Origin: Candidatus Melainabacteria bacterium
Lineage (GTDB): Bacteria; Cyanobacteriota; Vampirovibrionia; Obscuribacterales; Obscuribacteraceae
Direction: 5' to 3'
DNA: 64,000 bases
Assembly (NCBI GenBank): GCA_003963305.1
Contig: RXJR01000032.1
Location: forward strand, 248,532 to 312,531
In this document: positions 20,901 to 34,360 of the stretch, one piece after another
Position numbering within the stretch: the stretch's first letter is position 1
How the letters are laid out: every line of letters begins with the position of its first letter
Notes under the pieces: model-generated
The model's database searches: none
Told to the model about the DNA's origin: nothing
Seen by the model: only the letters and a program-made list of their open reading frames with translations
Made by a program: the position numbers and the translations under genes

Positions 20901-21685
20901 CAGTTGAACCGGTTGTTCAAGCAGTCAAGCCGGTTGTTCAGGCAGTCGAACCAGTCGTCGCTGCTGATAGAACTGTCGCCGCAGTCGAGCCCGTTGTTCA
21001 GGCAGCCAAGCCTGTTGTTCAGGCGGTCGAACCAGTCGTCGCTGCTGACAGAACCGTTGCCGCAGTCGAACCAGTCGTCGCTGCTGACAGAACCGTCGCC
21101 GCAGTGGAACCAGTCGTCGCTGCTGACAGAACCATCGCCGCAGTCGAACCAGTCGTCGCTGCCGACAGAACCGTCGCCGCAGTGGAACCAGTCGTCGCCG
21201 CTGACAGAACCGTCGCCGCAGTCGAACCAGTCGTCGCTGCTGACAGAACCGTCGCCGCACTGGGAGCCGCCGACAAAGTCGCCCGCGCAATCGAGCCAGC
21301 AGTGGTAGCTGGAGCGGCTCTCACCGCAGCAGCTGTAACTGAAATCGCGACAAAACCTGAGCCAGTCAAGCAAGAAATCACACCACCAACGGTACCAACC
21401 GATAAGCTGATGGCACTCGCCACGGTTCGCAGAGGCGAAGGACCTTTCCAATCGGCAGAGCGCATCCTCAGCGCCGATGGAAAGCGTCACAGCATCGATG
21501 AAGTGATGGCTCTGACCCGCGCACTGCAACGCAATTTCTCACCCGAGCGCAATGGCAACCACGACATGAAAGGCTTGAAAGTAAACTATCAATTCATCAC
21601 CAAAGATAACTTCGCCGCTATCATTGCCGACGTTAAGAACCCACAGGTCAAAGCCCAGCTTATGAAGATGGCATTGGCTTCCTAA
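17903..21685 (+). CDS. Large protein with annexin-like repeats, tandem 13-residue repeats and a LysM-like end
   Basis: 1260 residues, GAAGGA before the ATG, no signal peptide. Residues ~70-140 resemble an annexin repeat: DAELLHAAL, then ATVENIL, RAALEAKYEQLYGSKLRDDVKKYLGGD and a closing helix. The Ca-binding GxGT loop is missing (AISSPD). A second such segment is near residues 750-800 (ELAKLTTDEQKKALLNAYENKYHSNL). Other internal repeats are DLxxAIxxMSPxD (twice) and SGRxPANExE (twice). A hydrophobic patch (VVATIYTLGGSAALAA) precedes about 165 residues of VEPVVAADRTVAA and VEPVVQAVKPVVQA units. The end (RRGEGPFQSAERIL) looks LysM-like. It could be a large scaffold or surface-associated protein; the function is unknown. 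Confidence 0.8.
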   Translation: MSDKVEKVEKAERQPAQRPVVDMTTRDPGTDTTRSAADTAALVKQGVVANLTLVDGKAQTLTPEAVSKDAELLHAALTKTKLFGAISSPDAATVENILDPTNKKDRAALEAKYEQLYGSKLRDDVKKYLGGDGVAFRTVESMLNRTDNRTNFGGNLEVAMETTKVDPEKGNRLLRAAVGSLNSDQISQMAVDLQKVDGAKPLTDLVPANATEQQRRELTLGLDIAKSGRQPANETERAAYNAYQKAYVDRTISETPGLSDANRQVLGIMTQGVDHRSAEDVKKMANIALGSGDLKMFADAVNGDTPAAIEARKQLSGDPAFVKQYNEKFINNANQTQADVANDLLKDGKVSIPTIIKGDSNILFGLLDNPKNIDLAASSSTPKEQKDFSAGKELALSGRKPANEQESAALDYYNKVQQAMKEAGMDPKQRAITEDEIAHGGKTLISRLAELDKPSTLGFGGGHTTQDLMRAIENMSPADYQLLKDPAYKRDLLASTWTYEKNEDVNRRIQNMIEAKASAPNFEASQGIKRTVWEVYKDTQTGGASDKDLASAIASMSPKDAAMYKSDADYRKRIDDIVNNSMYNGAQDLAKSVLAQVAQTGKPAELSTLQQIQKNTMDGATPRQQIDLVEKLLADPKVREGLAKPWTEQTDEEKKMKAAIIDAIPTAMRPNHPLFQEGRVPLGDKVAFGVPVNQLYPDIARLPEAQRAQFSNLLNDSEKQILNNVIAQSGQERLEDRMRAIVVSGGSYKDIQGELAKLTTDEQKKALLNAYENKYHSNLSNDYMPLVDAADKVQFQNYLRPVGDGNQTAFEHAKTTDGLTRFAFDASAQTVERALQIEKGMLSQFQALNKQLPQEMQEKINTLITEAVDQNRAAPIEEIKALGKAAVDVAAVVATIYTLGGSAALAASIRAGEAAATVVSRAVAERTAAAILERQAAAPVVESLVAADRVAAVAEPIVAADRTVAAVEPVVQAVKPVVQAVEPVVAADRSVAAVEPVVQAVEPVVQAVKPVVQAVEPVVAADRTVAAVEPVVQAAKPVVQAVEPVVAADRTVAAVEPVVAADRTVAAVEPVVAADRTIAAVEPVVAADRTVAAVEPVVAADRTVAAVEPVVAADRTVAALGAADKVARAIEPAVVAGAALTAAAVTEIATKPEPVKQEITPPTVPTDKLMALATVRRGEGPFQSAERILSADGKRHSIDEVMALTRALQRNFSPERNGNHDMKGLKVNYQFITKDNFAAIIADVKNPQVKAQLMKMALAS
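20759..21258 (+). repeat. 39-bp tandem repeat encoding VEPVVAADRTVAA
   Basis: About ten near-identical 39-bp units encoding VEPVVAADRTVAA are mixed with shorter VEPVVQAVKPVVQA units. The last copies (21060-21258) are almost identical at DNA level, which points to recent expansion and likely copy-number change between strains. Confidence 0.9.
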
Positions 21686-21702: not shown

Positions 21703-23355
21703 TCAAATCGGCGGAATAGAACGCTTGCGAAATTTAATCTCAACGCCGACTGATGGATTGGAATAGCTGGGTCGCACAGCACCGCCGATGGGTCCCGCAT
21801 CGAATTGAACTGCATTTGCCAGGTCTTCGGAGATTGAGTTGCGATCGGTATCAGCAGGAGAAGCCATATCGGCAGTAATCCGCAAGGGCTCGCCAGCATG
21901 TTTACCACCGTTGATCCGCCCAGGTTGGTAGACAAAGTCACGGATGGAGCAATCATATGCAGTTCCAAGGGACTCATCGATAGCAAGGAGACCAGATACT
22001 GCATACCATTGTTTGTGGCTCACCGGAAGAGTAAGAGATTTCGAGATCCTCATCGACTCCAAAATCACATTTCCGTCTGAGTTAAAGCGAAGCATGTCTG
22101 CGTGAGCTTCTCCATCAACACTTAACGGCAAATCGAATGCAGCAAAGAGTGATTCCAGATTTATCGAGCATCCGCCGCGCCTGATCCAGTCATACACTGC
22201 TATGCGTTGCAGCTGCCCCATCGGTGGCCGCGCGAAATTTATCAACGGAAGCGAGACTTTGATAAGTTGATCCGGAGGACTATCATCAAGAATGGACTGC
22301 TGAGTGCGATCTGCGGGACCTTTTGCCAGTCGTGGGTTAGTGAGCAGAGAAGCGAGCGTTGTCAGTCCGTGAATTGATCCATTTGGAAAGGTCAGCATCA
22401 AGGCACCAGGGAACAATGGGCGATCAGACACAACTCCAGGCTCTGCGCTAGCTGTGGCCCTCAGCCGGGTTTGATCCACGGCGCCTCTAAGTCCCGAATA
22501 CTCGACCTCTTGCACAGCATCACAACGGACTATTGATGGAATGAAATAGGGAAGATCTGACAAATTCTCTTTGAAGTCTTTTGACTCTACGAGACAAGTC
22601 GCGTTCGACATGGCTGCAAAGACAAAATCCTTATCTTTATATCGGCAATTGACATACGCTTTGTAGCATCCACCTTCTTGCTTATCTGGCGAATCAAGAT
22701 TCGCATAGCGCGTAGGTTTCGGAATAGGAGTCGAGGTAGTCAAATCTTCTATGCAACCCAGCGTCAACACCATCGACCCAGGCACCAAGATCGACTTGCC
22801 ACCATTCATCCGAATCTGATTGGAATTGTATGCCTCTATAGCATCCTTGAGAGGTTCGACCAGGGCACCATCGATATCTTTACCTCTGCCACCGGGTCTG
22901 ATAGACATTCGTAACTCGTCTACAAGTTTGTCTTTCACTACGTTGACTTGAGCATAATCTCGTTCAGCACACTTTTGCATGATCGGATCTTGAAGAAGAT
23001 CGGCAATAATCAAGTCAAGCCGCGCTGTCGCAAGCAGCGTGTTAATGCCTCTTACAGGTAAGAAGTATCCATCTTGCGCCAAAGTACCTTTGCCAGTGGG
23101 AGGGTAATCCGACAAACAAACAAAACCAATTGCATCATCTTCGATTACGATTCGACTCAAGTCATTAGCCGCCGCCAGTGCTGCTGCCTGTATCGAAGTC
23201 ACCTGTTCATGATGACTGCCCAATAACCTCACGTAACTGAGACCAAACATCGCAAAAACAAGGACTATACCCAAGAAAACTGCCACCACTAGTGCAAGCA
23301 TGCTGCCAGACTGCGAACGCGAACGCTTACTATGGAAACTCAAAACCTCGGTCAT
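21703..23355 (-). CDS. TadG-like Flp pilus-associated protein
   Basis: About 550 residues. The N-terminus (SQSGSMLALVVAVFLGIVLVFAMFGLSYVRLL) followed by HHEQVTSIQAAALAAANDLSRIV is the pattern of TadG/TadE-type pseudopilin-like proteins: one membrane helix, then a helical arm rich in Ala and a large extracytoplasmic domain. Cys residues in the long domain (about 9) suggest disulfides. I chose ATG 23355 because GAGGATTG is well placed before it; a TTG at 23364 is possible. Last gene of a minus-strand set of three or four envelope genes. Confidence 0.75.
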   Translation of the reverse strand: MTEVLSFHSKRSRSQSGSMLALVVAVFLGIVLVFAMFGLSYVRLLGSHHEQVTSIQAAALAAANDLSRIVIEDDAIGFVCLSDYPPTGKGTLAQDGYFLPVRGINTLLATARLDLIIADLLQDPIMQKCAERDYAQVNVVKDKLVDELRMSIRPGGRGKDIDGALVEPLKDAIEAYNSNQIRMNGGKSILVPGSMVLTLGCIEDLTTSTPIPKPTRYANLDSPDKQEGGCYKAYVNCRYKDKDFVFAAMSNATCLVESKDFKENLSDLPYFIPSIVRCDAVQEVEYSGLRGAVDQTRLRATASAEPGVVSDRPLFPGALMLTFPNGSIHGLTTLASLLTNPRLAKGPADRTQQSILDDSPPDQLIKVSLPLINFARPPMGQLQRIAVYDWIRRGGCSINLESLFAAFDLPLSVDGEAHADMLRFNSDGNVILESMRISKSLTLPVSHKQWYAVSGLLAIDESLGTAYDCSIRDFVYQPGRINGGKHAGEPLRITADMASPADTDRNSISEDLANAVQFDAGPIGGAVRPSYSNPSVGVEIKFRKRSIPPI

Positions 23356-23392
23356 CGGCGTCAATCCTCTTCAAGCATTCCATCGGTCTGCA

Positions 23393-23905
23393 TCATTGAA
23401 GTCTCCAGGGCAAGGCATTCTTCGGCTGGATAACATTTATGCAGTTTCGCTCGATGAAGCTAGTGGGAAATGCTGTATGCGGCAAAAGCAGGAATTCAAA
23501 ATCGCTTGACGACCAAAAGAGTTCGTCTGACACTCCCAGACAATTGAGAAACTCCATCTCAGCGATTGTGCCGGCGTTTTTGAACCTATATTCGCCATAG
23601 AGGCTTGCGGAGTGGCTGTGAATGAACCAGCAACCTGCTCTTCTACTGACGAAGACCCTACCCATGCACAATTTCTCCTGAATCTCGCGTCTGTGCAATT
23701 CGAATAAAGCTTCGAGTTGAGGTTTTCGAATCTCCTTGTAGCGGCGATATGCGGATGCTCGGATCGATGCATCCCAACACTGCAAGGCTAGAAGTGTGAG
23801 CTTTCCAATTGACTGCATGTGCATGCATGCCGCTAGTAAATCAGACTCCAAACTATACGAGCCTGAGCCGATGTTTCCACCGATTGTACACTCGAGACCA
23901 ATCAT
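23393..23905 (-). CDS. Unknown protein between pseudopilin genes (170 aa)
   Basis: TAGGAG stands about seven bases before the ATG at 23905, so the gene is well supported. The protein has no signal peptide. A helical first half (SDLLAACMHMQSIGKLTLLALQCWDASIRASAYRRYKEIRKPQLEALFELHRREIQ) is followed by a beta-rich part with a possible Cys pair (RRAGCWFIHSHS, LNCLGVSD). Family not recognised. Its position between the TadG-like and TadE-like genes suggests a role in the same apparatus. Confidence 0.6.
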   Translation of the reverse strand: MIGLECTIGGNIGSGSYSLESDLLAACMHMQSIGKLTLLALQCWDASIRASAYRRYKEIRKPQLEALFELHRREIQEKLCMGRVFVSRRAGCWFIHSHSASLYGEYRFKNAGTIAEMEFLNCLGVSDELFWSSSDFEFLLLPHTAFPTSFIERNCINVIQPKNALPWRLQ

Positions 23906-24005
23906 GATGAACTCCTATGTTTACCACCACCATTGGTATTATTGTCGCTGCATAAAGTTGGAAATTCCGGTGATACGCCTTAGAAGAAATCGACCTGGGC
24001 TGAAT

Positions 24006-25130
24006 CTATTTCAGTGCTGTCACGACTACTCTGACAGTGATACTACCGAGATTGTTATCAAACCAGTCGGGCGACGATCCAGGTCCGTCAGGGCCGTCAT
24101 TTGTTCCCAGATACAGCCGACCCGATGTGGGCGGTATAAAATTGATGCTTCCACGCCCCAGGAAAAACGGAGGATTACCGTCGCCTGCTTTGCCCAGTAA
24201 TGAACCAGGCGGAAAACCTGTATTGTTGAACGGATGTCCATAAAAGTCCTCAAACTTTTTGTTGCCATCAGCATCCCAGGTTGGACGAAATCCGGTATCA
24301 GGATCTTGCCAGACGCTCCACTCACCGACAGCTCTGTAATCAATCCAGACACGATTTTTGCTGCCGACATTCATCTTGGTATCGAACCACTTCCAATTTT
24401 TCGCGTTGATCAGGAACACCTCTTCGTCAACAACCGTTTGCCCGGCTTTCTCAATGTCATGATAGATAGTCGGGTAATCCCAGCCGCTATCTATCAGGTC
24501 GGTTAACTCCCCGGGAATGTCCAGACCACTGACCCTGAGGTTAACTGGTGAAGTTCCACCCGAGAGAGAGAGAATCTTATCGAATTCGGCAAGACCAAGT
24601 GGATACTCAGCGAGATCTTGAGCACACATCGAGATCCGACACGGCACTCCAAGACCTGGTATCTTCCCAATAATAGGAATAAACGTGATCGGCAGGAGTG
24701 GTTCGACATCGTAAGTAGACTCGGCCTTGTACTCATAGAGCCAGTTCGTGGTATCAATTGGAACGTTTACCGGTGAGTTTGGTCCGTATTGAACAGACCG
24801 ACCGCTAACGCTGCAACTGGTTGCTTGAACAAATAGATTCGTTCCTGTGTCCGCATGTCCACTGACCGGGCGCAGGTGAAGAAAACGGTGTAATCCGTCA
24901 GCATTAAGCCGCTTCAACTCACTCGACATTGAAGACAGCGCTTTTTTGTAAGACTGTTGCGCAGCGGCTCTTTCTGCAGCCACTTTGGCAGTTAGAAAAA
25001 TAGTTGAGCAGGCTATTCCAAGTGAAACCATGTTAACGAGCGGAAACACCGCCATCATAAAGAGGACAAACAGACTAAGTGGAATCTCTGCAGCGGACCC
25101 GCGCTGTCTATTGGAAATACGAGTGGTCAT
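24006..25130 (-). CDS. TadE/TadG-like membrane-anchored protein
   Basis: 374 residues. RQRGSAAEIPLSLFVLFMMAVFPLVNMVSLGIACSTIFLTAKVAAERAAAQQSYKKAL is a TadE-like N-terminus: short basic lead, one membrane helix, then an Ala-rich helix. The rest is an extracytoplasmic domain ending in a jelly-roll-like stretch (GRLYLGTNDGPDG... VRVVVTALK), a pattern seen in lectin-like or LecA-type carbohydrate-binding folds. I regard that as a guess. The gene lies 134 bp downstream of TadE-like paralogue A. Confidence 0.7.
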   Translation of the reverse strand: MTTRISNRQRGSAAEIPLSLFVLFMMAVFPLVNMVSLGIACSTIFLTAKVAAERAAAQQSYKKALSSMSSELKRLNADGLHRFLHLRPVSGHADTGTNLFVQATSCSVSGRSVQYGPNSPVNVPIDTTNWLYEYKAESTYDVEPLLPITFIPIIGKIPGLGVPCRISMCAQDLAEYPLGLAEFDKILSLSGGTSPVNLRVSGLDIPGELTDLIDSGWDYPTIYHDIEKAGQTVVDEEVFLINAKNWKWFDTKMNVGSKNRVWIDYRAVGEWSVWQDPDTGFRPTWDADGNKKFEDFYGHPFNNTGFPPGSLLGKAGDGNPPFFLGRGSINFIPPTSGRLYLGTNDGPDGPGSSPDWFDNNLGSITVRVVVTALK

Positions 25131-25264: not shown

Positions 25265-25927
25265 CTAATACACAGACGGCAAGTCATTGAACCAGACGTT
25301 ATGCGGTGCTGGCGGTGTGAGACTGGGTGGAATTCCTTGTTTTATATGCAAATTGTTTATCGCGACATCGTAAGGAAACTGCCAAATCGGCATCGTATGT
25401 TTGGGCTGTACGATCGGAATGTACAGCGAAGGTCCGGTCTGGGAATCTTCGTAAGAATAGGGATAAGGACTGATAGCAACTGCAGCTGTCACCCGGTTCG
25501 CTGGCAGAACCGCCACGGCTTTGTCTTCCATGCCAATAGATACGGGCAAGGACATGCCTTCGATAAGTGGAAGATCGATTGTGGCGTTGAGAATTACAGC
25601 GTCATTGTCATCAACCTGAACAGTTTTTGTAGTGACCTTCAGATTCTGTCCCTTCAGACCAGAGCGGGCGCACAGTTTTTTTAACATCAATTCCGCCTGT
25701 TTTTGATCATCATCGTGCTCCGGCCGATTAACGATGTATTCGGCGGTTTGATTCATTACAAACGACAACTTTTGCTTGTAGATGCAACCTAATCCGGTGT
25801 CAACAAGACATACAACGATAAGTATAGTTACCGGAATGATCATCAAGAGGTCTGCAGTGGCGAATGTCATTCCGCTGCAGCGTCGGCCTCGAATCCTAGC
25901 GAGTTCGTTCTTCAATTTTTTTGACAT
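25265..25927 (-). CDS. TadE-like pseudopilin, paralogue A
   Basis: 220 residues. N-terminus basic, then FATADLLMIIPVTILIVVCLVDTGLGCIYKQKLSFVMNQTAEYIVN: a single helix followed by the TadE-type amphipathic arm. The mature domain has a Pro-rich end (PPSLTPPAPHNVWFNDLPSVY). It is a close paralogue of the gene at 27713-28375, of identical length and with near-identical long stretches (SPYPYSYEDSQTGPSLYIPIV, HTMPIWQFPYD). Its upstream region carries the conserved leader and the 19-bp element shared with paralogue B, and the element is also upstream of three secreted TIM-barrel genes. Confidence 0.8.
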   Translation of the reverse strand: MSKKLKNELARIRGRRCSGMTFATADLLMIIPVTILIVVCLVDTGLGCIYKQKLSFVMNQTAEYIVNRPEHDDDQKQAELMLKKLCARSGLKGQNLKVTTKTVQVDDNDAVILNATIDLPLIEGMSLPVSIGMEDKAVAVLPANRVTAAVAISPYPYSYEDSQTGPSLYIPIVQPKHTMPIWQFPYDVAINNLHIKQGIPPSLTPPAPHNVWFNDLPSVY

Positions 25928-25935
25928 GGCACTTT

Positions 25936-25987
25936 CCCATCAAACCGGAGAATTTGTTGCCTCGGGTGCAGCCGTGGGCTAACATTC
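25936..25987 (-). promoter_or_regulatory. Conserved 5' leader of TadE-like paralogue A
   Basis: The leader repeats almost base for base at 28385-28437 upstream of paralogue B: CCCATCAAACC, TTGTTGCC, CGGGTGCAGCCG and GGCTAACAT in the same order. Read on the minus strand it would form a G/C-rich hairpin (CGGCTGCACCCG). It could be an mRNA leader control element; the sequence conservation exceeds that of the flanks. Confidence 0.5.
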
Positions 25988-26003
25988 CTATCTTGACCCT
26001 AAG

Positions 26004-27590
26004 ATGTGGAGAAGACCGGTGATCTCGATTAAAACTGAGGACCGAAAAAAGAGATCCTCCTTTTTCGTGAAATGGATGAACAGCAGTCTGCGTAATCGTT
26101 TAATCGTCTACTCGATCATTCCGGCGGGATTGCAGCTGCTTTTATCAGTCTATCTGTTCTTCGAGTTCAACAGATTCGAAAAGCTGGCCGAACACGAGAC
26201 ACTTACAAAAGAACTAATAGGAAGGACCAACTGGGTGCAAACCCTTCTTTTATCAACATCTTTGTCCTGGGTCGAATATTTGGTTTCAAATGACACAAAG
26301 TATGCCGAGTCGATGCAGAACCTTCGAAAATCCGCATCCGAACAGCTCGTCGCCCTGCAAGAGGTTGTTGAACTATACAGCCGACACAATATTGGCGACG
26401 TTACTAATTTGACACAGTCTATTCGCAACTACACCGCCGTCATACTCCCCCCAACCAAAGTTGAAAACGACGAGGCTGCAAATCTATCAGACGAAGAAAA
26501 AATAGCGCTCATGAAAGAACGCTTGCTCAGTCCGTCCTTACAAACTGCAGCCCGTCAATTTCATATTGCTCGACAAAAACTTCTATCGAGTCAACGCAAC
26601 TCGTTCAAACTGAACCACATCGATGCAACTCCAGAAAATCGCACGGTTCTCAAGTATATTGTAATCGCCCTTATGGCCACGGGCATCGGCACCTCAGGAA
26701 TCTTTATACTGGCATACAGTCTCTATGTGCAAAGACGTCTGAATATCCTGAAAGAAAATACGATCCGCATAGCCCAAGGTGAGGAACTACCTGAATGCAC
26801 ATCAGGTAGCGATGAATTGGCAGCAGTTGACCGTGCTATGCACCGAATGGATTCTGAACTCAAAGAGGCGGCGAAAAGAGAGCAAGAGATAATGCAGTTG
26901 AAGCAGCATCTCATGGATATGGTAGCTCATGACCTCAGGACCCCTCTGACTAACCTGTCGGCGGTCCTTGAAATTTTGCTGGATGATGATGAAAATCCTG
27001 CATCAGAATTTCAGACTCAGATGTACCGCCGCGGGCAAAACTCCATCAAGAGAATGATGACACTTACTAATGACCTGCTTTTGCTCGACAAGGCGGATGC
27101 TGGAATGCTCCAAATTCAGCCAGAACAAACCAATCTTATGGAGATCATTCAATCTTGCATTGGTCTAGTTGAACAAATTGCGGGAGCAAGAAAGGTGAAA
27201 ATCGAGAGACAAGGCACGTGCGGACAATTAGTTGCCGACGAGAACAGACTGGAACAAGTGCTGGTAAATCTGCTCACAAACGCGATCAAGTTTTCACCAT
27301 CAGATTCCACAGTGAGCATTGCTACCGACGATCTAGGAGATCGTTACGAAATCAAAGTTTCTGACGAAGGGCGAGGCATTCCGCCTGAACAAGTTCCGTA
27401 CGTATTTGACAGGTTTCGCCAGGTGACGGCGGCAGACTCCGCCGAGGGGCGCGGAGCGGGACTGGGACTGGCAATCTGCAAGGCAATCGTCGAACTTCAT
27501 AATGGTCAGATTTCTTGTCACAGCGAAGTCGGCAAAGGCACCGTATTTAATATCATACTACCAAAGGAACCAGCTAACATTGTGTCCTGA
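26004..27590 (+). CDS. Orphan sensor histidine kinase
   Basis: 528 residues from ATG 26004. Two membrane helices (VYSIIPAGLQLLLSVYLFFEF and VIALMATGIGTSGIFILAYSLYV) enclose a ~175-residue extracytoplasmic, helix-rich domain. HAMP-type linker, HisKA with phospho-acceptor His309 (DMVAHDLRTPL), HATPase (NLLTNAIKFSP, DEGRGIPPE, GAGLGLAICKAIVELH). No regulator gene is adjacent; the nearest is at 31629. The start is uncertain: ATG 26076 (MNSSLRNRL) would free the 19-bp element at 26015-26033, which otherwise lies inside this gene. The kinase is transcribed divergently from TadE-like paralogue A. Confidence 0.9.
   Translation: MWRRPVISIKTEDRKKRSSFFVKWMNSSLRNRLIVYSIIPAGLQLLLSVYLFFEFNRFEKLAEHETLTKELIGRTNWVQTLLLSTSLSWVEYLVSNDTKYAESMQNLRKSASEQLVALQEVVELYSRHNIGDVTNLTQSIRNYTAVILPPTKVENDEAANLSDEEKIALMKERLLSPSLQTAARQFHIARQKLLSSQRNSFKLNHIDATPENRTVLKYIVIALMATGIGTSGIFILAYSLYVQRRLNILKENTIRIAQGEELPECTSGSDELAAVDRAMHRMDSELKEAAKREQEIMQLKQHLMDMVAHDLRTPLTNLSAVLEILLDDDENPASEFQTQMYRRGQNSIKRMMTLTNDLLLLDKADAGMLQIQPEQTNLMEIIQSCIGLVEQIAGARKVKIERQGTCGQLVADENRLEQVLVNLLTNAIKFSPSDSTVSIATDDLGDRYEIKVSDEGRGIPPEQVPYVFDRFRQVTAADSAEGRGAGLGLAICKAIVELHNGQISCHSEVGKGTVFNIILPKEPANIVS
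26015..26033 (-). promoter_or_regulatory. 19-bp element, copy 1 (upstream of TadE-like A)
   Basis: Plus-strand ACCGGTGATCTCGATTAAA, 87 bp before the start of the gene at 25927. Read towards the gene it is TTTAATC-N4-TCACCGGT. The same element precedes four more genes (28465, 29978, 31385, 33548). Confidence 0.7.
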
Positions 27591-27600
27591 TGTATTGAAT

Positions 27601-27634
27601 GAGGAAGCGGTATCCTTGCACGAACCGCTTCCTC
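27601..27634. terminator. Bidirectional terminator-like hairpin
   Basis: Perfect 11-bp stem GAGGAAGCGGT / ACCGCTTCCTC with a 12-base loop, between the convergent kinase (27590) and TadE-like B (27713). No long T-run. The right side (GACTTCACCTCCTGA, then TTGTGGTTTGATG) resembles the 3' flanks of two secreted TIM-barrel genes. Confidence 0.65.
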
Positions 27635-27712
27635 TAATGACTTCACCTCCTGAATTTAGTTGGTTGTGGTTTGATGGGTGGTTGGAAAAACTCTCTGCGC
27701 TGCTTTGCCGCA

Positions 27713-28375
27713 CTAATAAAGCGATGGGAAATCATTGAACCAGGGATTTTGCGGTGGTGGTGGTGTGAGAGCAGGAGCAGCTCCTTGCTTAACATGCAAG
27801 TTGTTAATTGCAGCATCGTACGGAAACTGCCAGATTGGCATCGTGTACTTAGGCTTGATAATGGGAATGTAGAGGGCTGGTCCCGTGTTCGACTCTTCAG
27901 TTGAATAAGGATAAGGACTGATGGCAATCGCAGCGCAGACGCGATTCGCTGGTAAAACAGCTGTCACCGTATCTTGCATTGTAAGAGACACCGGTAAAGC
28001 CGTACCCTCAAGCAACGGGAGCTCGATTTGCGCAGTGAGACTGACTGCATCGTTGTCATCGACTTGCACCATTTTGGTGCAAACCCTCAGATTCCGCCCC
28101 TTTAAACCCGACAAAGCACAGAGCTGCTTGAGCATTGATTCTGCTTGCTTTTGATCGGCATTATTCTCCGGCAAGTTTACTATATAGTTGGCAGTCTGAT
28201 TCATCACAAAGGACATCTTCTGCTTGTAGACACAGCCCAGTCCAGCATCGACCAGACATACAACTATAAGTATCGATACCGGAATGAGCATCATCAAATC
28301 CGCAGTGGCAAACAACACCCCCCTTGCATTTCTTCGTCGAATTCCTGCGCCTTGATTATCCTGTCTATTTTTCAT
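27713..28375 (-). CDS. TadE-like pseudopilin, paralogue B
   Basis: 220 residues, paralogue of the gene at 25265-25927 and very close to it in the helix (FATADLMMLIPVSILIVVCLVDAGLGCVYKQK) and in the C-terminal half (PANRVCAAIAISPYPYSTEESNTGP, MPIWQFPYDAAINNLHVKQG). Both keep the NQTAxYIVN arm. The Pro-rich tail (ALTPPPPQNPWFNDFPSLY) is also shared. The pair flanks the kinase gene, so one duplication event or an insertion between copies is likely. The N-terminal ~15 residues differ. Confidence 0.8.
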   Translation of the reverse strand: MKNRQDNQGAGIRRRNARGVLFATADLMMLIPVSILIVVCLVDAGLGCVYKQKMSFVMNQTANYIVNLPENNADQKQAESMLKQLCALSGLKGRNLRVCTKMVQVDDNDAVSLTAQIELPLLEGTALPVSLTMQDTVTAVLPANRVCAAIAISPYPYSTEESNTGPALYIPIIKPKYTMPIWQFPYDAAINNLHVKQGAAPALTPPPPQNPWFNDFPSLY

Positions 28376-28384
28376 ATCACTTTA

Positions 28385-28437
28385 TCCCATCAAACCAGAG
28401 TATTGTTGCCGCGGGTGCAGCCGCTTGGCTAACATGT
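28385..28437 (-). promoter_or_regulatory. Conserved 5' leader of TadE-like paralogue B
   Basis: Counterpart of the leader at 25936-25987, with the same ordered blocks and the hairpin GCGGCTGCACCCGC on the minus strand. Confidence 0.5.
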
Positions 28438-28464
28438 TTATCTTGACTTTGATTTATAAGAAAT

Positions 28465-28483
28465 ACCGGTGATTATGATTAGT
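28465..28483 (-). promoter_or_regulatory. 19-bp element, copy 2 (upstream of TadE-like B)
   Basis: Plus-strand ACCGGTGATTATGATTAGT, 89 bp before the start codon at 28375. The block TATCTTGAC lies the same distance from the element as in copy 1, so the whole upstream region was duplicated. Confidence 0.65.
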
Positions 28484-28594
28484 AATGAGCGTGAAACAAG
28501 TAGTTATTGGTGGTAGCTAAATCAAGTTCCTCAAATAATTCAGGTCCGTTGATTTATCTTCTCAATTTGGAATGCTTTCGAGAAAAAGCGCAAT

Positions 28595-28627
28595 CGGCAA
28601 GGCAATACAACCGGTACTGCCTTGCCG
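28595..28627. terminator. Strong orphan hairpin in an apparently gene-free stretch
   Basis: Perfect 10-bp inverted repeat CGGCAAGGCA / TGCCTTGCCG with a 13-base loop. Read on the minus strand it is followed by GATTGCGCTTTTTC. No protein gene that I can support ends here (28484-28769 holds none). It could end an unannotated small RNA or be a remnant of a deleted gene. Confidence 0.5.
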
Positions 28628-28769
28628 AAAATAATCACCATTATGTTTGTTTGTTATGGATGAAGAAGCGATGCAGCGTCGCTTACGCACCGCCTCTTTT
28701 TTGAATCACCTCCTGATGCCACAGTCTTGTGGTTTGATGTAGATGAATTTTCCAACTCGAACCAAGACT

Positions 28770-29909
28770 TTACTCGAGATAGGGAGTAATGGAATTTGGA
28801 TATGTCTTCACCAGACCTCCGGCTGGGTCTGTTCCGCTCACAACTTCCTTGACCATCGCCAGGTAGCCATCAGTACCATACCACCAGACATAATTTAGCT
28901 TCAGGTCTTTGGCTAAGTCATAAGTGGCTCTTACATTTGCGATCGTGTCATTGGCGAAACCACCACCACCAACTGGATGCTTCGTGTCCATATACTGCAC
29001 AGCGTAACCGATTGGGATCTTTCCAGCTGCCATCGGAGTATTAGAATATGAATGACGCTCGAGAGCCTCATCCCAAGGTCTCAAGTCAGGTCCTCCCATT
29101 CCGACCCCTTCAGCAATCGCCTTCTGAATCATTGATCGTTCCCTATCTGGAAATGAAGGACTCTGATTGATGAAATTAATAAACTGAAGCACTTGGGTGT
29201 GAGGCAAACTTGCATTGAGCGCCTTGAATCTGTCGACGATATTACTGTTATACACATCATTGTTTTTCGGCATTATATTGTTCGGAGTACCGGCAAGATC
29301 CTCAAGTGACGGAGATGCTGTCTCTGGAAGATTTACGCCTTCAAGTGCCGATACATTCGGATCCGAATTAAGTGCTGTGCCCAGTGCCGTGTACAAGCTA
29401 ACCAACCGAGCTTGTACAACTGGATCCCAGGTGACTGGCTGTCTGATGATGCGACCCTTTCTTTGTACTGCAGAGAAAGCACTGTAGAAACCTCCACCCG
29501 GCTTCGGCGACCCATTCACTAAGTAGCTTGGGCATGTCTCATAGGGATCGGGTCCAAAACCTTTGAATTGCACCTGAACGAAAAGATGTTTGTTGGCAAG
29601 CTTAGCCAGGCGCAGGTGCCTTTTGATTTTGGAGAAGTTGTAATTGTTCTTAGTTGGCTCGCAGGATCGCCACGTGTACATCACTTGAACGCCACGTAAT
29701 TTCGGCGATGCATGGAGCAGTCCATCCACCTCGGCATCGCTCGGATCCATACCGGGGCAGAAGATGTAGTTACCTGGATGCCAGCGTGCCGATTTGGATT
29801 TTCCAGCCGCCTCTGCCGAATCGAACAACGCTCCTCCGGCAAGGGAAACAAGCGAAAAAAGCACGAGCAACGGATTACGAAACTTTCGCGACGCAAAAAT
29901 TGTTTTCAT
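28770..29909 (-). CDS. Secreted TIM-barrel (glycoside-hydrolase-like) protein, paralogue 1
   Basis: 379 residues from ATG 29909, preceded by AGGAAGGA. Signal peptide to about residue 32. The mature protein starts with ARWHPGNYIFCPG and has strand/helix alternation of a clan GH-A-like barrel: RGVQVMYTWRSCEP, NYNFSKIKRHLRLAKLANKHLFVQVQFKGF, LEGVNLPETAS (the position of the acid/base Glu in such barrels), LPHTQVLQFINF, VGMGGPDLRPWD, and YVWWYGTDGYL. A second catalytic Glu is not evident, so it may bind rather than cleave sugars. Three paralogues occur at 28.8, 30.2 and 32.4 kb, all preceded by the 19-bp element. Confidence 0.75.
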   Translation of the reverse strand: MKTIFASRKFRNPLLVLFSLVSLAGGALFDSAEAAGKSKSARWHPGNYIFCPGMDPSDAEVDGLLHASPKLRGVQVMYTWRSCEPTKNNYNFSKIKRHLRLAKLANKHLFVQVQFKGFGPDPYETCPSYLVNGSPKPGGGFYSAFSAVQRKGRIIRQPVTWDPVVQARLVSLYTALGTALNSDPNVSALEGVNLPETASPSLEDLAGTPNNIMPKNNDVYNSNIVDRFKALNASLPHTQVLQFINFINQSPSFPDRERSMIQKAIAEGVGMGGPDLRPWDEALERHSYSNTPMAAGKIPIGYAVQYMDTKHPVGGGGFANDTIANVRATYDLAKDLKLNYVWWYGTDGYLAMVKEVVSGTDPAGGLVKTYPNSITPYLE

Positions 29910-29977
29910 CTCAATCCTTCCTGAGTAATAACAGTCAATCACCACACAATCCAGAGTAGATTCAAATTGTGAACTAG

Positions 29978-29996
29978 TACGGTGACTCCGATTAAT
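29978..29996 (-). promoter_or_regulatory. 19-bp element, copy 3 (upstream of TIM-barrel paralogue 1)
   Basis: Plus-strand TACGGTGACTCCGATTAAT, 68 bp before the start codon at 29909. It differs from the consensus in the second and a few central positions but keeps CGGTGA and GATTAA. Confidence 0.6.
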
Positions 29997-30091
29997 CTGA
30001 GCGCCGCACCACCAGCAATGGCTTCAACCGAAAAGCAAATGCTGCTCAGATCGACACTCAAGCTCAAATGAGTTCCTGTCTCGAGTTTTTA

Positions 30092-30138
30092 TCAAAAAAA
30101 ACTGAAGAAGCGGTGCTCCTCAGACACACCGCCTCTTC
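30092..30138 (-). terminator. Rho-independent terminator of TIM-barrel paralogue 2
   Basis: On the minus strand a 12-bp imperfect stem (GAAGAGGCGGTG / CACCGCTTCTTC) is followed by AGTTTTTTTTGA. It stands about 70 bp after the stop of the 30206-31330 gene. A degenerate version with the same flanks follows paralogue 1 at 28660-28705. Confidence 0.85.
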
Positions 30139-30205
30139 TTTGATTTCACCCCTGATATTAATCTTGTGGTTTGAATGGATGAATCTTTCCAACCAAGACC
30201 TCAGC

Positions 30206-31330
30206 TCAATTGAGATAAGGAGTAATCGAAGTTGGATATGCCTTTACCAAACCTCCAGCTGGGTCTGTTCTAACCGCAGGAGCGTCAAGGACTTCCTTAA
30301 CCATATTGAGGTAGTTGTTAGTCCCAAACCAGAAGACGTAATTAAGTCGCAGGTCCTTGGCGAGCTTATAAGTGCTCTTTACGTTCTCAATGGTGTCGTC
30401 AGCAAATGAACCGCCTCCAATGGGGTGGTGCGTATCTGGATACTGCACAGCATATCCCACCGGAACTTTCCCAACAGCCATCGGAATGTTAGCGTATGAA
30501 TGTGCTGCAAGCGAGGCATCCCATGGTCTCAAGTCTGGGCCACCAATGCCGACACCATCAGCAATTGCCTTTTGAACCATTGATGCTTCCCTGTTTGCGA
30601 AAGACGGACTCGCAGTAACCCAATTTATGAACTGCATAACTTGAGTATGAGGCAATGCTGCATTGAGTGCCTTGAATCTCTCTACAAGATTATTGTTATA
30701 GACCTCCACGCTCTTTGGCATCGCCTTGCTTACTGACTCAGTAACAGTACCACTGGCAGTTTCAGGAAGATTAACGGCCTCCAGGGCTGAGACATTAGGA
30801 TCCGACTTAAGTGCGTTGGCCATGGCGTTGAGAAAACTCAAGAGTCGAGCTTGCACCACTGGATCCCACGAGGCTGGTTGCCTGATCAGTTTCCCGTTGA
30901 ATTCGAACGCATAGAAAGCGCTATAATAGCCCCCGCCAGGTTTCGGCGATCCGTTGACTAAATAATTTGGACACACTTCATACGGGTTTGATCCAAAACC
31001 TTTAAACTGCACTTGCACGAAAAGATGTTTATTTGCAAGCTTTGCCATTCGCAGATGTCTTTTGATTTTAGAGAAGTCGTAACCGTTTTTGGTCGGCTCG
31101 CAGGATCGCCACGTGTACAACACCTGAACACCACGGAAGCGCGGCGAGGCATCAAGCATTTGCTGGACCTTTTCGTCAGTCGGATCCAATCCGGTACAAT
31201 AGATGTAGTTACCTGGGTGCCACTGAGCCGCTTTAGATTTCGCCTCTGCTGACTGAAACAGCCCTGCGCTCGCGAAAGAGAGAATTGAGAGAAGAACCAA
31301 TAGCGGAAAACAAGAATTTCTTTTGCTCAT
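30206..31330 (-). CDS. Secreted TIM-barrel (glycoside-hydrolase-like) protein, paralogue 2
   Basis: 374 residues, signal peptide (FPLLVLLSILSFASAGLFQSAEA). It is closest to paralogue 1 over its whole length: AAQWHPGNYIYCTGLDPTD, FRGVQVLYTWRSCEPTKNGYDFSKIKRHLRMAKLANKHLFVQVQFKGF, ALEAVNLPETASG, QVMQFINW, VGIGGPDLRPWD and TDPAGGLVKAYPTSITPYL. The conserved Cys pairs near the start (YIYC, RSC) are kept. It has an extra stretch (VLDAPAVR) before the last block compared with paralogue 1. ACAGGAAA is the ribosome binding site. Confidence 0.75.
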   Translation of the reverse strand: MSKRNSCFPLLVLLSILSFASAGLFQSAEAKSKAAQWHPGNYIYCTGLDPTDEKVQQMLDASPRFRGVQVLYTWRSCEPTKNGYDFSKIKRHLRMAKLANKHLFVQVQFKGFGSNPYEVCPNYLVNGSPKPGGGYYSAFYAFEFNGKLIRQPASWDPVVQARLLSFLNAMANALKSDPNVSALEAVNLPETASGTVTESVSKAMPKSVEVYNNNLVERFKALNAALPHTQVMQFINWVTASPSFANREASMVQKAIADGVGIGGPDLRPWDASLAAHSYANIPMAVGKVPVGYAVQYPDTHHPIGGGSFADDTIENVKSTYKLAKDLRLNYVFWFGTNNYLNMVKEVLDAPAVRTDPAGGLVKAYPTSITPYLN

Positions 31331-31384
31331 AATAGTATTTCCTGTCAGAATACGTCTTTATGATAGGCAGCCGGTGTGGGAAAT

Positions 31385-31403
31385 ATTGGTGAAGCTGATT
31401 AAA
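31385..31403 (-). promoter_or_regulatory. 19-bp element, copy 4 (upstream of TIM-barrel paralogue 2)
   Basis: Plus-strand ATTGGTGAAGCTGATTAAA, 54 bp before the start codon at 31330. It matches copy 5 at all but three positions. Confidence 0.65.
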
Positions 31404-31469
31404 TAGCAGTTCAGTTTTGCGTTTCACCAATCACAACTTTCGCTATAAAGATGGCTCTGTCCCATTCCT

Positions 31470-31515
31470 TTGAATTTCATTTCGCTACCACATACGGTGG
31501 CACAACGAAATTCAA
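31470..31515. repeat. Nested inverted repeat in the gap before the response regulator
   Basis: Outer arms TTGAATTTCA (31470-31479) and CGAAATTCAA (31506-31515) match at nine of ten bases. An inner arm pair CCAC / GTGG lies between them. A cruciform or RNA stem could form. It lies 114 bp before the TTG start of the regulator and may serve its promoter or the divergent TIM-barrel gene. Confidence 0.5.
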
Positions 31516-31628
31516 GGCAAGAGAAAAAAACATTCTACTGACAAGCAAATGCAGATTACCTTTTTTCAGCTACAGAAGTGCGAACTGATTAGCGTATAAT
31601 TAGTCTTCAATGCTGCGAGGAAGACCTG

Positions 31629-32312
31629 TTGCCAAAAGTATTGCTGGTCGAAGACGATCTAGACATGGCGGACAATATTGCCATCTGGTTTAAACGTCAA
31701 AATTATTTGATCGAACACGTAGCCGACGGTGGCTCCGCCATTGAAAGGTTGTTGCAGGACTCTTACGACCTTGTGATTCTTGATTTGGACTTACCTGTCA
31801 AAGACGGACTAACTGTATGCAAAGAATATCGCGACAGCGGAGGATCGACACCGATTTTGATGCTGACAGGACGCGCTGCTTCCGCACAAAAGGTCGCCGG
31901 GTTAGACACTGGAGCCGATGATTATCTGGCGAAACCATTTAGTCTTAACGAACTGCTTGCCAGAGCCAGAGCCCTAATTAGAAGAGCTAGCGGTATAGTT
32001 TCCAATCAAATTGCTCTTGGTAATTTAAAGATCGATGCACAAACCAGACAAGTATTTTTATCTGGAAAAGAAGTCAAACTTCGTCCTCGCGAATATGCTC
32101 TGCTCGAATTTTTTGCCAGACATCCCGGGGAGGTTTTTTCCAACGACACGTTACTGCAACGAGTATGGAGTATAGACTCAGACAGTTCTAACGAAGCCGT
32201 AAGGAGCTGTCTTCGCACTGTCAGACAGCATCTCGAATCAGAACCGTCGGTGGTGATTGAAACGGTGCACGGGGTTGGTTACAGACTCCGAGTTATACAA
32301 CAGGAAACTTAA
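31629..32312 (+). CDS. Orphan OmpR-family response regulator
   Basis: 227 residues, TTG start with GAGGAAG upstream. Receiver with the LLVEDDLDMADN pocket, phospho-acceptor Asp52 (LVILDLDLPVKDG), Thr in MLTG, and Lys in DYLAKPFS. Winged-helix DNA-binding domain (LRPREYALLEFFARHPGEVFSNDTLLQRVW, NEAVRSCLRTVRQHLE, VHGVGYRL). No kinase gene is adjacent; the orphan kinase at 26004 is the obvious partner candidate. The regulator sits between TIM-barrel paralogues 2 and 3, and the shared 19-bp element is a natural candidate target. Confidence 0.93.
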   Translation: MPKVLLVEDDLDMADNIAIWFKRQNYLIEHVADGGSAIERLLQDSYDLVILDLDLPVKDGLTVCKEYRDSGGSTPILMLTGRAASAQKVAGLDTGADDYLAKPFSLNELLARARALIRRASGIVSNQIALGNLKIDAQTRQVFLSGKEVKLRPREYALLEFFARHPGEVFSNDTLLQRVWSIDSDSSNEAVRSCLRTVRQHLESEPSVVIETVHGVGYRLRVIQQET

Positions 32313-32344
32313 CGGAGGAGGGAAGTTTGGCTCCCCTCCTCCGT
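32312..32344. terminator. Terminator-like hairpin between the response regulator and TIM-barrel paralogue 3
   Basis: Perfect 11-bp stem ACGGAGGAGGG / CCCTCCTCCGT with an 11-base loop, lying between the two convergent stop codons. There is no clear T-run on either strand, but the position suits a shared terminator. Confidence 0.7.
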
Positions 32345-32359
32345 CCTCCACTGCCACGA

Positions 32360-33484
32360 TCATCTGTCGAGCAACGGTCTAATCGCACTCGGGTAGGTCT
32401 TTACCAGACCACCAGCGGGATCCGTTCTGAGTGCAGGCTGGTCCAACACTTGTTTAACAAGGGGAATGTACCGATCCAGGTTGGTCCAGAACACATAGTT
32501 CAATTTGCGACCTTTAGCCAAATCAAGGGTATTCCGAACATCATTTACATCATCGGCGGCGCCACCTGGACTCATGGTGTCAGCATATTGAACGGCAAAA
32601 CCAATAGGAATCTTTCCTGCGGCAAGGGCACATTGCGAGTACACGTTTTCAACAAGATTTGACCGACGAGGATCCAAATCAGGTCCACCAAATCCAACCC
32701 CTTCGGCTATCTCCTTAGCCACCATTGCCGCATTATTTGGAAGCGCCGCCGTCGGGTGGATAGCATTGGTATATTGCATAACCTGTGTGTGCGGCAACGC
32801 AGCATTCAGAGTCTGGAAACGCTGAATTACAAAATTGTTCGCCTGATCCTTGTCCAACGGCAGCACATTGGGTTGAGCAGCGATGTCATCGGGACGAGCG
32901 CCACTAGCAGATTCAGGCATGTTAACACCTTCGAGGGCAGATGCATTGGAATCTGATCTCAATGCGTAACCCATGGCTGTTAGTAGATTTTTCAATCTGT
33001 GATTCACAGCCGGATCCCAACTCGCAGGCTGTCTGATGATTCTTCCGTTACGCACATATGCATAGAATGCACTATAGTTGCCACCACCCGGCTTAGGCGA
33101 CCCTTTGAGGTCCCTGGGACAAACTTCAAAGGGATCGGCGCTGAAGCCTTTGAACTGAATCTGGGCCCAGATGTGCTTGTTTGCAGCCTTCGCAAGCGCC
33201 ATGTGTCGCTTGATTGCACTGAAATTATAGTTTCCGAGAGATGGCTCGAGTTCATTCCAACGATAGACGATCTGCACACCACGGAAGCGTGGCGAATAGG
33301 AAAGCCAGTCGCTAACCTTGCTGTCACTTGCAGGACCAATCAAAATGTAGTGCCCTGGGTGCCATTGAGCTGTCTTAGACTTCCCCTCTGCCAATGCCGG
33401 GAACGGGACAATGGCTAGAGAAAGCAGCGCTGCCGATGAGAATGCCATCAAGCCGTTTCGAAGAGCACTAGTAAGTTTCAACAT
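32360..33484 (-). CDS. Secreted TIM-barrel (glycoside-hydrolase-like) protein, paralogue 3
   Basis: 374 residues from ATG 33484, with AGGATC just before; the frame is open up to 33598 but those residues do not resemble a signal peptide start. Signal peptide to about residue 33 (LLSLAIVPFPALA). It shares the block order of the other two: KTAQWHPGHYILIG, RGVQIVYRWNELEPSLGNYNFSAIKRHMALAKAANKHIWAQIQFKGF, ALEGVNMPESASG, HTQVMQYTNAI, VGFGGPDLDPRR, TDPAGGLVKTYPSAIRPLL. It is the most divergent; the two Cys of the N-terminal blocks are replaced (YILIG, RWNELEP). Confidence 0.75.
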   Translation of the reverse strand: MLKLTSALRNGLMAFSSAALLSLAIVPFPALAEGKSKTAQWHPGHYILIGPASDSKVSDWLSYSPRFRGVQIVYRWNELEPSLGNYNFSAIKRHMALAKAANKHIWAQIQFKGFSADPFEVCPRDLKGSPKPGGGNYSAFYAYVRNGRIIRQPASWDPAVNHRLKNLLTAMGYALRSDSNASALEGVNMPESASGARPDDIAAQPNVLPLDKDQANNFVIQRFQTLNAALPHTQVMQYTNAIHPTAALPNNAAMVAKEIAEGVGFGGPDLDPRRSNLVENVYSQCALAAGKIPIGFAVQYADTMSPGGAADDVNDVRNTLDLAKGRKLNYVFWTNLDRYIPLVKQVLDQPALRTDPAGGLVKTYPSAIRPLLDR

Positions 33485-33547
33485 TGATCCTGACCTCACA
33501 CAGTAGCCGGTTACACAAACCGATTTTGATTTACGTAACTGTGAAAC

Positions 33548-33566
33548 ACCGGTGAAGTTGATTAAA
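33548..33566 (-). promoter_or_regulatory. 19-bp element, copy 5 (upstream of TIM-barrel paralogue 3)
   Basis: Plus-strand ACCGGTGAAGTTGATTAAA, 63 bp before the start codon at 33484. GTGAA occurs twice with an 11-bp period (33541 and 33552), as in direct-repeat sites of OmpR-type regulators. Confidence 0.7.
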
Positions 33567-33730
33567 CAAGCGACCGCTCGACACATGCCCTCATTCATGT
33601 AAAACTACAATTTTGAGTGTATTGCGAGATTTTATCAATCTGGAAATGCTTGTTGAGCCGAACTCTAGAGCATTCCAGCCTCAGCAGGGCTAAAAAACGA
33701 TGCCATAATGTACTGAGAGGTCCCCTTTCG

Positions 33731-34360
33731 ATGCACGACGAAGATCACTATCGCAGCTTGAAGACACATATGAACGGTTTGCGGGTGCACGATCACGTGT
33801 GCATGGCATACGAGGATCGTGAGCAGCAAGTAACAGCGATCGCCCAGTTCGTTAAGGCCGGAATCGAACTCGGCGAGAAGTGCATTTATGTCTGCGACAA
33901 ATTAAATGCCGAATTCGTTTTGAAAGTCCTGAAAGAGACCGGTCTCGATGTTGAGACCCTTCTGGAGAACGGTGCGCTTGAAGTCCTGACGCCGGAAGAG
34001 TTCTACCTTCGCAACGGCAAGTTTGATGCAGAGGACGTAATTACTCAAGGTCGGCTAATTATCGCAGATACTTTGAGGAAGGGCTTCAAAGCTCTCCGAT
34101 GCGCATGTGACATGAGTTGGGCAAAGACTTACAAGATCCCCCCCAAAGCGTTAATCGATTACGAAGCCAAAGTCAGTTGCCTATTCGAAGACAAACTAGT
34201 AAGCATTTGCCAGTACAACACACACCTGTTTGACGATCAAACATTAAACACGCTGCTCCAGAACCATCCAGTGACGATTCACGGCGGTGACATCGTATAC
34301 CGCCCACAACTCGCGCCGGCAACAACCCATGTGCCAATGGGACACGAGCAATCAGCCTAA
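33731..34360 (+). CDS. MEDS-domain sensory protein
   Basis: 209 residues from ATG 33731 with GAGAGG upstream; earlier in-frame codons lack a site. HDHVCMAYEDREQQVTAIAQFVKAGIELGEKCIYVCDK at the start and KALIDYEAKVSCLFEDKLVSICQYNTHLFDDQTLNTLLQNHPVTIHGGDIVYRP at the end are typical of the MEDS (methanogen/methylotroph DcmR sensory) domain, a RecA/KaiC-like fold found alone or before output domains. Here it stands alone. In other bacteria such proteins accompany kinases or anti-sigma systems. It is divergent from TIM-barrel paralogue 3 and convergent with a small gene (4-bp overlap). Confidence 0.8.
   Translation: MHDEDHYRSLKTHMNGLRVHDHVCMAYEDREQQVTAIAQFVKAGIELGEKCIYVCDKLNAEFVLKVLKETGLDVETLLENGALEVLTPEEFYLRNGKFDAEDVITQGRLIIADTLRKGFKALRCACDMSWAKTYKIPPKALIDYEAKVSCLFEDKLVSICQYNTHLFDDQTLNTLLQNHPVTIHGGDIVYRPQLAPATTHVPMGHEQSA

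Follow-up and report, generated by a model that had tools for sequence, protein, structure and literature searches.

A candidate Tad pilus-tip cassette comprising a two-component system and GH-A-like barrel genes in a Candidatus Melainabacteria bacterium

Tad and type II secretion systems are related, and in type IV pili PilS monitors the pilin PilA. For the Kil Tad pilus of Myxococcus xanthus, the main text of the report describes four paralogous TadE/F/G-like clusters as exchangeable tips (KilLMN) of one Tad pilus, and exchangeable Tad tips are shown there in a predatory Myxococcus (PMC12075869). In Pseudomonas aeruginosa, the flp-tad-rcp locus, the CupE fimbriae and the BapA adhesin are controlled by PprA-PprB (PMC3510237). 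PilS-PilR controls the type IV pilin PilA (PMC6058289). The locus described here is like Kil in that several paralogous TadE/F/G-like clusters occur in one genome and the large TadG-like member has an extra domain; it differs in that the term 'two-component' is missing from the main text of the Kil report (PMC12075869), that secreted GH-A-like barrels are not known from the Kil system, and that tip assembly by the present proteins is a prediction. As with PprA-PprB, a two-component system would turn on Tad pilus genes along with other surface factors. There, however, the Tad locus itself is controlled, whereas here the core Tad genes are free of the shared upstream element, whose sites are confined to genes for minor pilins, for barrels and for a small protein. 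The likeness to PilS-PilR is a membrane kinase apparently devoted to pilin genes, but the pilus is of another class, the regulator is of OmpR type and several such kinases are present per genome.

The locus is carried by contig RXJR01000032.1 (C32) of a Candidatus Melainabacteria bacterium, within a window of 64,000 nucleotides, the whole stretch of DNA that was analysed. The initial annotation had placed five minus-strand genes, a kinase and a regulator at 25265–33566. All seven were found at the coordinates and on the strands given; the contents of the interval stand but its limits do not, as the locus reaches left to 21703 with TadF-like and TadG-like genes. On the minus strand lie the genes for a TadG-like large minor pilin of 553 aa (21703–23364; TTG start, or ATG at 23355), a 170-aa protein without known family (ORF170, 23393–23905), a TadF-like minor pilin of 374 aa (24006–25130) and the TadE-like protein pilA of 220 aa (25265–25927). 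A membrane sensor histidine kinase follows on the plus strand (26073–27590). Its open reading frame was listed from 26004, and the start is probably GTG 26067 or ATG 26073 instead. The second TadE-like gene, pilB (220 aa; 27713–28375), is again on the minus strand, as are the three genes for secreted TIM-barrel proteins at 28770–29909 (TIM 1), 30206–31330 (TIM 2) and 32360–33484 (TIM 3). The reading frame of TIM 3 was listed to 33598; the start at ATG 33484 lies downstream of the shared element. An OmpR-type response regulator is encoded on the plus strand at 31629–32312.

The two TadE-like genes are paralogous, as had been claimed, but 'near-identical' was wrong at 71% identity. Like canonical TadE and TadG (PF07811, PF13400), these proteins have a prepilin-like N-terminal helix, and the low-confidence model of pilB consists of a long N-terminal helix and three strands. 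Profile similarity of the TadE-like family to the genome's own canonical TadE was detected, though remote (hhalign E 4.6e-6). Unlike that canonical TadE, which scored 59 bits to PF07811, pilA and pilB gave no match to this Pfam family; they have their own C-terminal region and lie outside any Tad locus. The TadE-type assignment is therefore supported as a remote, pseudopilin-like similarity. The TadG-like protein scored 19.2 bits to Pfam Tad (PF13400), under the cut-off of 22.3, and the canonical TadG of the complete Tad locus likewise stayed under it at 19.7 bits. TadG-like homologues (35–44% identity) lie beside related kinases on C44, C22 and C6 of the source genome (G000) and at G009:C492 and G012:C121. 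TadF-like homologues (26–39% identity; the name TadF was given by leader, size and place alone) lie beside related kinases on the same three source contigs, with two copies on C6, and at G009:C492, G002:C119 and G012:C121. The cassette thus recurs, with paralogous TadF/TadG homologues on C44, C22 and C6 within the source genome itself. TadE-, TadF- and TadG-like genes are found together at 21.7–28.4 kb of the window, with homology to TadE/F/G that is remote or below cut-off. Downstream of pilA, at a distance of 134 bp and in the same orientation, lies the TadF-like gene. The TadG-like gene follows ORF 23393–23905 after 28–37 bp and is, from this gap, probably its operon partner.

Complete Tad machinery sits elsewhere in the source genome. 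In a genome search for TadB/TadC (PF00482), matches were obtained on C6, C4, C2 and C1 and none on C32; a Tad locus encodes TadB/TadC, and this locus does not. C4 carries Flp, TadE, CpaB, TadG, TadZ, TadA, TadB and TadC, and a second Tad set, with a prepilin peptidase, is present on C2.

The barrels were compared with glycoside hydrolases. With TIM 2, the middle one of the three, the two remaining barrels share 68% and 54% identity. No Pfam family and no GH family was assigned to the barrels in family searches, no match was found in phages, and the N-terminal part of the barrel gave a weak sequence match to GH35 (E 0.013). The medium-confidence model of TIM 2 (pLDDT 62, pTM 0.64) has the (beta/alpha)8 barrel of clan GH-A, and superposed on GH14, GH35, GH42 and GH5 barrels with VIA-align Z of 11.7–14.0 and rmsd of 4.3–5.2 Å over 244–283 residues. 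Glu190, invariant in nine sequences, occupies the place expected for the acid/base after beta-4. The position after beta-7 is Tyr, Trp or Pro in all six sequences of the bacterial family, with an invariant Asp two residues further on, and Glu (AVQE) in three plasmid relatives. Thus, with strands assigned from the model and alignment, one of the two catalytic glutamates of clan GH-A is present. The likeness to the clan (GH35, GH42, GH5_18) lies in the fold, which GH14 shares, the weak GH35 match and Glu190; the difference lies in the missing family match and the missing glutamate after beta-7. The GH-A-like assignment proposed earlier is borne out as a remote one, by fold comparison of the model.

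A 19-bp element had been reported upstream of the five minus-strand genes. The element is real, but it is about 30 bp long and precedes eight genes. Its core pattern, TTAATCN4TCACCGGT, was found in five window copies with 0–2 mismatches each, all on the minus strand. Perfect matches number two in the entire 7.48-Mb genome, both at the locus; five sites have at most one mismatch, 3/5 at the locus and the remaining two within coding genes. Up to three mismatches, the plain pattern count is weak (9 against 4.6 expected). The full element reads YTAATC N4 TCACCG GTAT TTCNCA, with a period of about 10 bp. This repeat spacing is compatible with the OmpR/PhoB-type class.

The element lies 59–97 bp upstream of eight genes, which encode the two TadE-like pilins, four TIM barrels and both copies of the 170-aa protein and belong to three unrelated families. 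Within the window, all on the minus strand, sites precede ORF 23393–23905 (23951–23985; 23.8 bits with E 2.6e-6 in a search of the window; the ATG is 68 bp from the core), pilA (26001–26034, over the listed kinase start; 25.3 bits, E 8.4e-7; core pattern 26015–26032), pilB (28451–28485; 24.7 bits; core 28465–28482), TIM 1 (29963–29996; 19.9 bits, the lowest of the set; core 29978–29995), TIM 2 (31373–31404; 23.4 bits; core 31385–31402) and TIM 3 (33534–33568; 24.4 bits; core 33548–33565). The two sites outside the window precede a fourth barrel on C12 and the paralogue of ORF 23393–23905, 9 kb left of the window. This paralogue (46% identity) is the only one in the source genome, and its site was found via the genome search alone. 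No homologue of ORF 23393–23905 was found among 49 relatives; the ORF has no NCBIfam family, and the paralogue no Pfam family. In genome-wide profile scores the eight sites reached 19.9–26 bits and the next best 12.8, so that the element is limited to these eight.

The strong evidence for the element came from a leave-one-family-out test rather than from the pattern count. With profiles searched over 406 kb of the genome, the left-out TadE-like sites ranked 1–2, the left-out ORF170 sites ranked 1–2, and three of the four left-out TIM sites ranked 1, 3 and 4. Since the sites were recovered by profiles built without them, the element reflects shared regulation and not copied duplicates. One co-regulated set in the source genome, as first proposed, is supported by the presence of the element across three unrelated families; its full membership is defined by profile searches. 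Neither of the core Tad gene sets, on C4 and on C2, has a copy. Scans for consensus promoters and terminators stayed at shuffle level and yielded nothing usable. For the C6 cassette, a shared element of its own was considered and rejected: agreement was 20/24 between the two TadF duplicates but 16/24 with TadG, the latter being at chance level.

The kinase contains HisKA (2.5e-13) and HATPase_c (1.2e-31) domains in Pfam, and the regulator has the receiver (Response_reg, 1.2e-25) and winged-helix Trans_reg_C (6.6e-22) domains of the OmpR/PhoB type. Both had been described as orphans. The window kinase and six relatives, however, were recovered as a single clade (88/94; in 90% of bootstraps; 0/500 shuffles as low) whose members all adjoin TadF-like and/or TadG-like genes, in the window outside the interval first drawn. 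The orphan label is thus not supported for the pair, and for the kinase it is rejected on neighbourhood and tree. The five top-scoring kinases after the window's own are every one beside TadF/TadG homologues. Such homologues lie beside 7/30 top kinases, the window included, against 1/160 control windows (p 9e-6), and TadE-like clusters of the bacterial family lie within 1.5 kb of two-component genes in 20/45 cases against 8/200 control windows (p 3.5e-11); both counts take kindred loci as independent.

The neighbourhood was then compared in relatives. A TadE-like gene and a barrel gene are same-strand neighbours in both barrel-bearing relatives, G009 and G012, where pilB homologues of 46–52% identity adjoin the barrel genes; they probably form one operon. 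A two-component pair is present beside these genes in G009 (G009:C7) and none in G012. The G009 kinase and regulator were rejected as orthologues of the window's, because G009 contains many better matches. The element, looked for upstream of the orthologues, gave no convincing site: one weak site before a 48-aa membrane ORF in G009, and weak sites, partly within coding genes, in G012. With the element absent, the pilin and barrel in one probable operon and the pair non-orthologous, the element seems to reflect regulatory wiring particular to this lineage and not an ancient regulon. No barrels were found in the other cassettes examined.

These results are best explained, with a probability of about 0.5, by a Tad pilus-tip cassette under the control of a two-component system of its own, joined here to secreted GH-A-like barrels without the beta-7 glutamate. 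Two modules that occur apart in relatives, a kinase beside TadF/TadG-like genes and a TadE-like gene beside a barrel gene, would be brought together in the window. Kinase and regulator would be partners, and the phosphorylated regulator would bind the element before the eight start codons, switching on together the TadE/TadF/TadG-like minor pilins, the barrels and the two small proteins of no known family. TadF and TadG would be expressed by read-through from pilA and ORF 23393–23905, respectively. The Tad machine encoded elsewhere may process the minor pilins and use them as an alternative tip, and the barrels may bind or cut extracellular polysaccharide met by it. The set may serve surface attachment or polymer use.

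It is less likely that the element is a true shared operator read by another OmpR-type paralogue, the local kinase sensing minor pilins in the manner of PilS. About 70 OmpR-type regulators are encoded in the source genome, any of which could bind the element; kinases recur beside minor pilin genes even without an adjacent regulator; the regulator's closest relatives, unlike the kinase's, are mostly outside tip cassettes (1/30 within); and no copy of the element precedes the regulator gene (31629). The position of that gene within the run of element-bearing genes argues for the local regulator, as does the joint presence of kinase and regulator in the C44, C22, C6, G002:C119 and G012:C121 cassettes.

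It is unlikely that the TadE-like proteins are pseudopilins of an export device releasing the barrels, and not a tip. The ordinary N-terminal signal-like segments of the barrels, the lack of a barrel in most TadE-like clusters of the bacterial family and the absence of an inner-membrane TadB/TadC homologue from the window's contig speak against it, even though Tad systems are akin to type II secretion and the TadE-like and barrel genes are side by side in all three genomes found with a barrel. That the element is a mere by-product of tandem duplication, with promoters copied and no common control, is very improbable. pilA/pilB and the barrels are indeed duplicates, and the similarity of the pilA and pilB upstream regions extends past the element. 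Sites common to three unrelated families are, however, recovered across families, and two further ones, in front of a pair of paralogues unrelated to the rest, came to light by genome search alone. Hitch-hiking on duplication as the element's origin was rejected on the leave-one-family-out test.

If the tip-cassette reading is true, with tip-type pilins repeatedly travelling with their own sensor pairs, the choice of pilus tips by signal in bacteria becomes directly testable. It would also open a first way into the function of the two-component systems, very numerous in these uncultured cyanobacterial relatives, and a barrel family still without classification is put forward for enzymology. 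More tentatively, each genome of the bacterial family may carry several plug-in tip cassettes, all equipped with a kinase and a regulator of their own, through which different signals would fit different tips onto shared Tad machines; here, one such cassette may have taken over secreted GH-A-like barrels without the usual nucleophile as co-regulated binders of surface or prey glycans.

The window spans positions 248532-312531 of contig C32 in a 7.48-Mb genome, whose family is probably Obscuribacteraceae, to judge from genome size and gene content. All seven genes of the initial annotation were found at their stated positions: two TadE-like genes (25265..25927 and 27713..28375, minus strand), three secreted TIM-barrel genes on the same strand, a kinase (26073..27590, plus) and an OmpR-type regulator (31629..32312, plus). 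The TadE-like pair, described as near-identical, measured 71% identity, and the middle barrel shares 68% and 54% identity with the other two. The shared upstream sequence reported for the five minus-strand genes was found before each as TTAATCN4TCACCGGT with 0–2 mismatches. The observation is confirmed, and the interpretation placed on it is partly supported. A relative, a groundwater 'Candidatus Melainabacteria' genome, carries the same type of locus. Divergent from the third barrel gene, at 33617-34360, lies a gene whose product has a MEDS domain (the DcmR sensory domain; E 6e-40).

Only two perfect matches to TTAATCN4TCACCGGT occur genome-wide, both at this locus; the remaining one-mismatch matches elsewhere in the genome lie within coding genes. 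A profile built from six sites (five in the window and one before a fourth barrel on contig C12) was searched genome-wide. It recovered its own sites at 21.8–25.3 bits, and two new sites in the source genome were among the next three matches: one scoring 16.3 bits at C32:239409, which is 9 kb to the left of the window, the other scoring 14.2 bits at 23955-23985, before the ORF 23393-23905. The genes downstream of the new sites are paralogues with 46% identity, and homologues of the pair were found in none of the 49 other genomes. The eight-site set scores 19.9–26 bits against 12.8 for the next genome match among the first 150 candidates scored. Since circularity had to be avoided, the profile was rebuilt without each gene family in turn and searched against 406 kb of the source genome, both strands. 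The TadE-like sites when left out ranked 1 and 2, as did those of ORF 23393-23905 and its paralogue, and three of the four TIM-barrel sites ranked 1, 3 and 4. At all eight sites the core lies 59–97 bp from the start codon. The element is real, and its gene set is larger than the five originally listed. An element-like site (15.3 bits) was also seen in the relative G009 (contig C84, locus L120, 1500-1700), ahead of a membrane ORF of 48 aa and a stomatin-like gene, and adjoining an OmpR-type regulator.

The two-component pair had been considered orphan. This does not hold: a TadF-like gene (374 aa, 24006-25130) and a TadG-like gene (553 aa, 21703-23364) lie left of the interval first annotated, and homologues of both lie alongside the closest relatives of the window kinase. 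A 1260-aa ORF (17903-21685) with no Pfam family above cut-off is convergent with the TadG-like gene. Cassettes of a kinase with a TadF-like gene, a TadG-like gene or both were read on C44, C22 and C6 of the source genome and in relatives at G009:C492, G002:C119 and G012:C121, most of them also with a regulator. TadF-like or TadG-like genes lie within 1.5 kb of 7 of the 30 best kinase matches (window included) versus 1 of 160 control windows, and the seven cassette kinases form one clade (support 88/94; none of 500 label shuffles as low). An independent line of evidence comes from TadE-like clusters in the family: 20 of 45 lie no more than 1.5 kb from a kinase or regulator, versus 8 of 200 control windows. 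Kinship among the loci makes the p-values of both counts too small, yet the effect is a large one. The recurring cassette, like the element, is solid.

The element's conserved blocks (YTAATC, TCACCG and TTCNCA) are spaced by about 10 bp, a pattern compatible with binding by an OmpR-type protein. A regulator other than that of the window may read the element, since just 1 of the 30 best relatives of the window regulator lies near TadF-like or TadG-like genes. The source genome (7.48 Mb) holds at least 71 OmpR-type regulator and 99 kinase matches, and numbers in G001, G002 and G009 are similar.

Several further arrangements were seen. At loci L337, L339 and L335, other kinases of the top 30 adjoin minor-pilin-like operons missed by the TadF/TadG profiles; the counts may understate the association. 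In the C6 cassette (L331, 7350-13731), a common GTTGACAC...GACACAAG stretch upstream of both TadF duplicates is possibly an operator specific to this cassette. Three tandem TadE-like genes stand beside proteins of about 1000 aa with two complete kinase cores each (L056, 7489-12464; L246; L060, 7355-12426), an arrangement kept in G000:C24 (source genome), G001:C41 and G002:C66. A lone TadC-like gene (T2SSF) is faced by a kinase-regulator pair (L282, 8233-11416; L336; L338), a layout conserved in G000:C1, G002:C103 and G001:C1.

The close barrel family is present in 3 of 50 family genomes. In both relatives, G009 and G012, the barrel gene comes after a same-strand TadE-like gene, the order in G009 being regulator, kinase, TadE-like, barrel. 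Homology searches ruled out this regulator and kinase as orthologues of the window pair; the window therefore joins two modules, TadE-like gene with barrel and kinase with TadF/TadG-like genes, that are separate in G012 (C77, C121) and G009 (C7, C492). Distant relatives (24–32% identity) are on plasmids of Xenorhabdus, Enterobacter, Serratia, Ewingella and Rhizobium, with no pilin genes nearby at the three loci read. The Xenorhabdus bovienii megaplasmid copy (L327, 7929-8888) follows type VI secretion genes at a distance of a few genes; none neighbour the Serratia and Rhizobium copies. A second GH-A-like family, of 550–690 aa, is represented by L061 (4378-6141) and by homologues across many of the family's genomes, most often as a single copy in each; it has weak similarity to the barrel N-terminal half. 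L063 (JAJPJO010000130.1), titled 'Proteobacteria bacterium', groups in the source genome's family and is apparently mislabelled.

The predicted barrel structure (medium confidence) matches GH35, GH14, GH42 and GH5 barrels (Z 11.7–14.0). Glu190 is invariant at the expected clan GH-A acid/base position. The glutamate that the plasmid relatives have after beta-7 is replaced in the barrels of this bacterial family by Tyr, Trp or Pro, and an Asp is invariant two residues beyond. The barrels may be sugar binders that lack the usual retaining chemistry, or may use this Asp instead.

Tad machinery is encoded elsewhere in the genome, on C4 (Flp, TadE, CpaB, TadG, TadZ, TadA, TadB, TadC) and again on C2, where the set includes a prepilin peptidase; TadE, TadA, TadB/C and the peptidase were assigned by Pfam, and the others from gene order and sequence. 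A genome search found no TadB/TadC homologue on C32. In the Kil system, one Tad pilus receives different tips from four paralogous TadE/F/G-like clusters (PMC12075869), a precedent for reading the window locus as a tip cassette. Two-component control of Tad genes is already known from PprAB (PMC3510237); in the part of the literature covered, no report was found that links dedicated sensor pairs with tip-type minor pilins in this lineage. The locus is best read as a putative pilus tip cassette that would be controlled by its own two-component system, with secreted barrels, putatively acting on glycans, that would be co-regulated with it through regulator binding.
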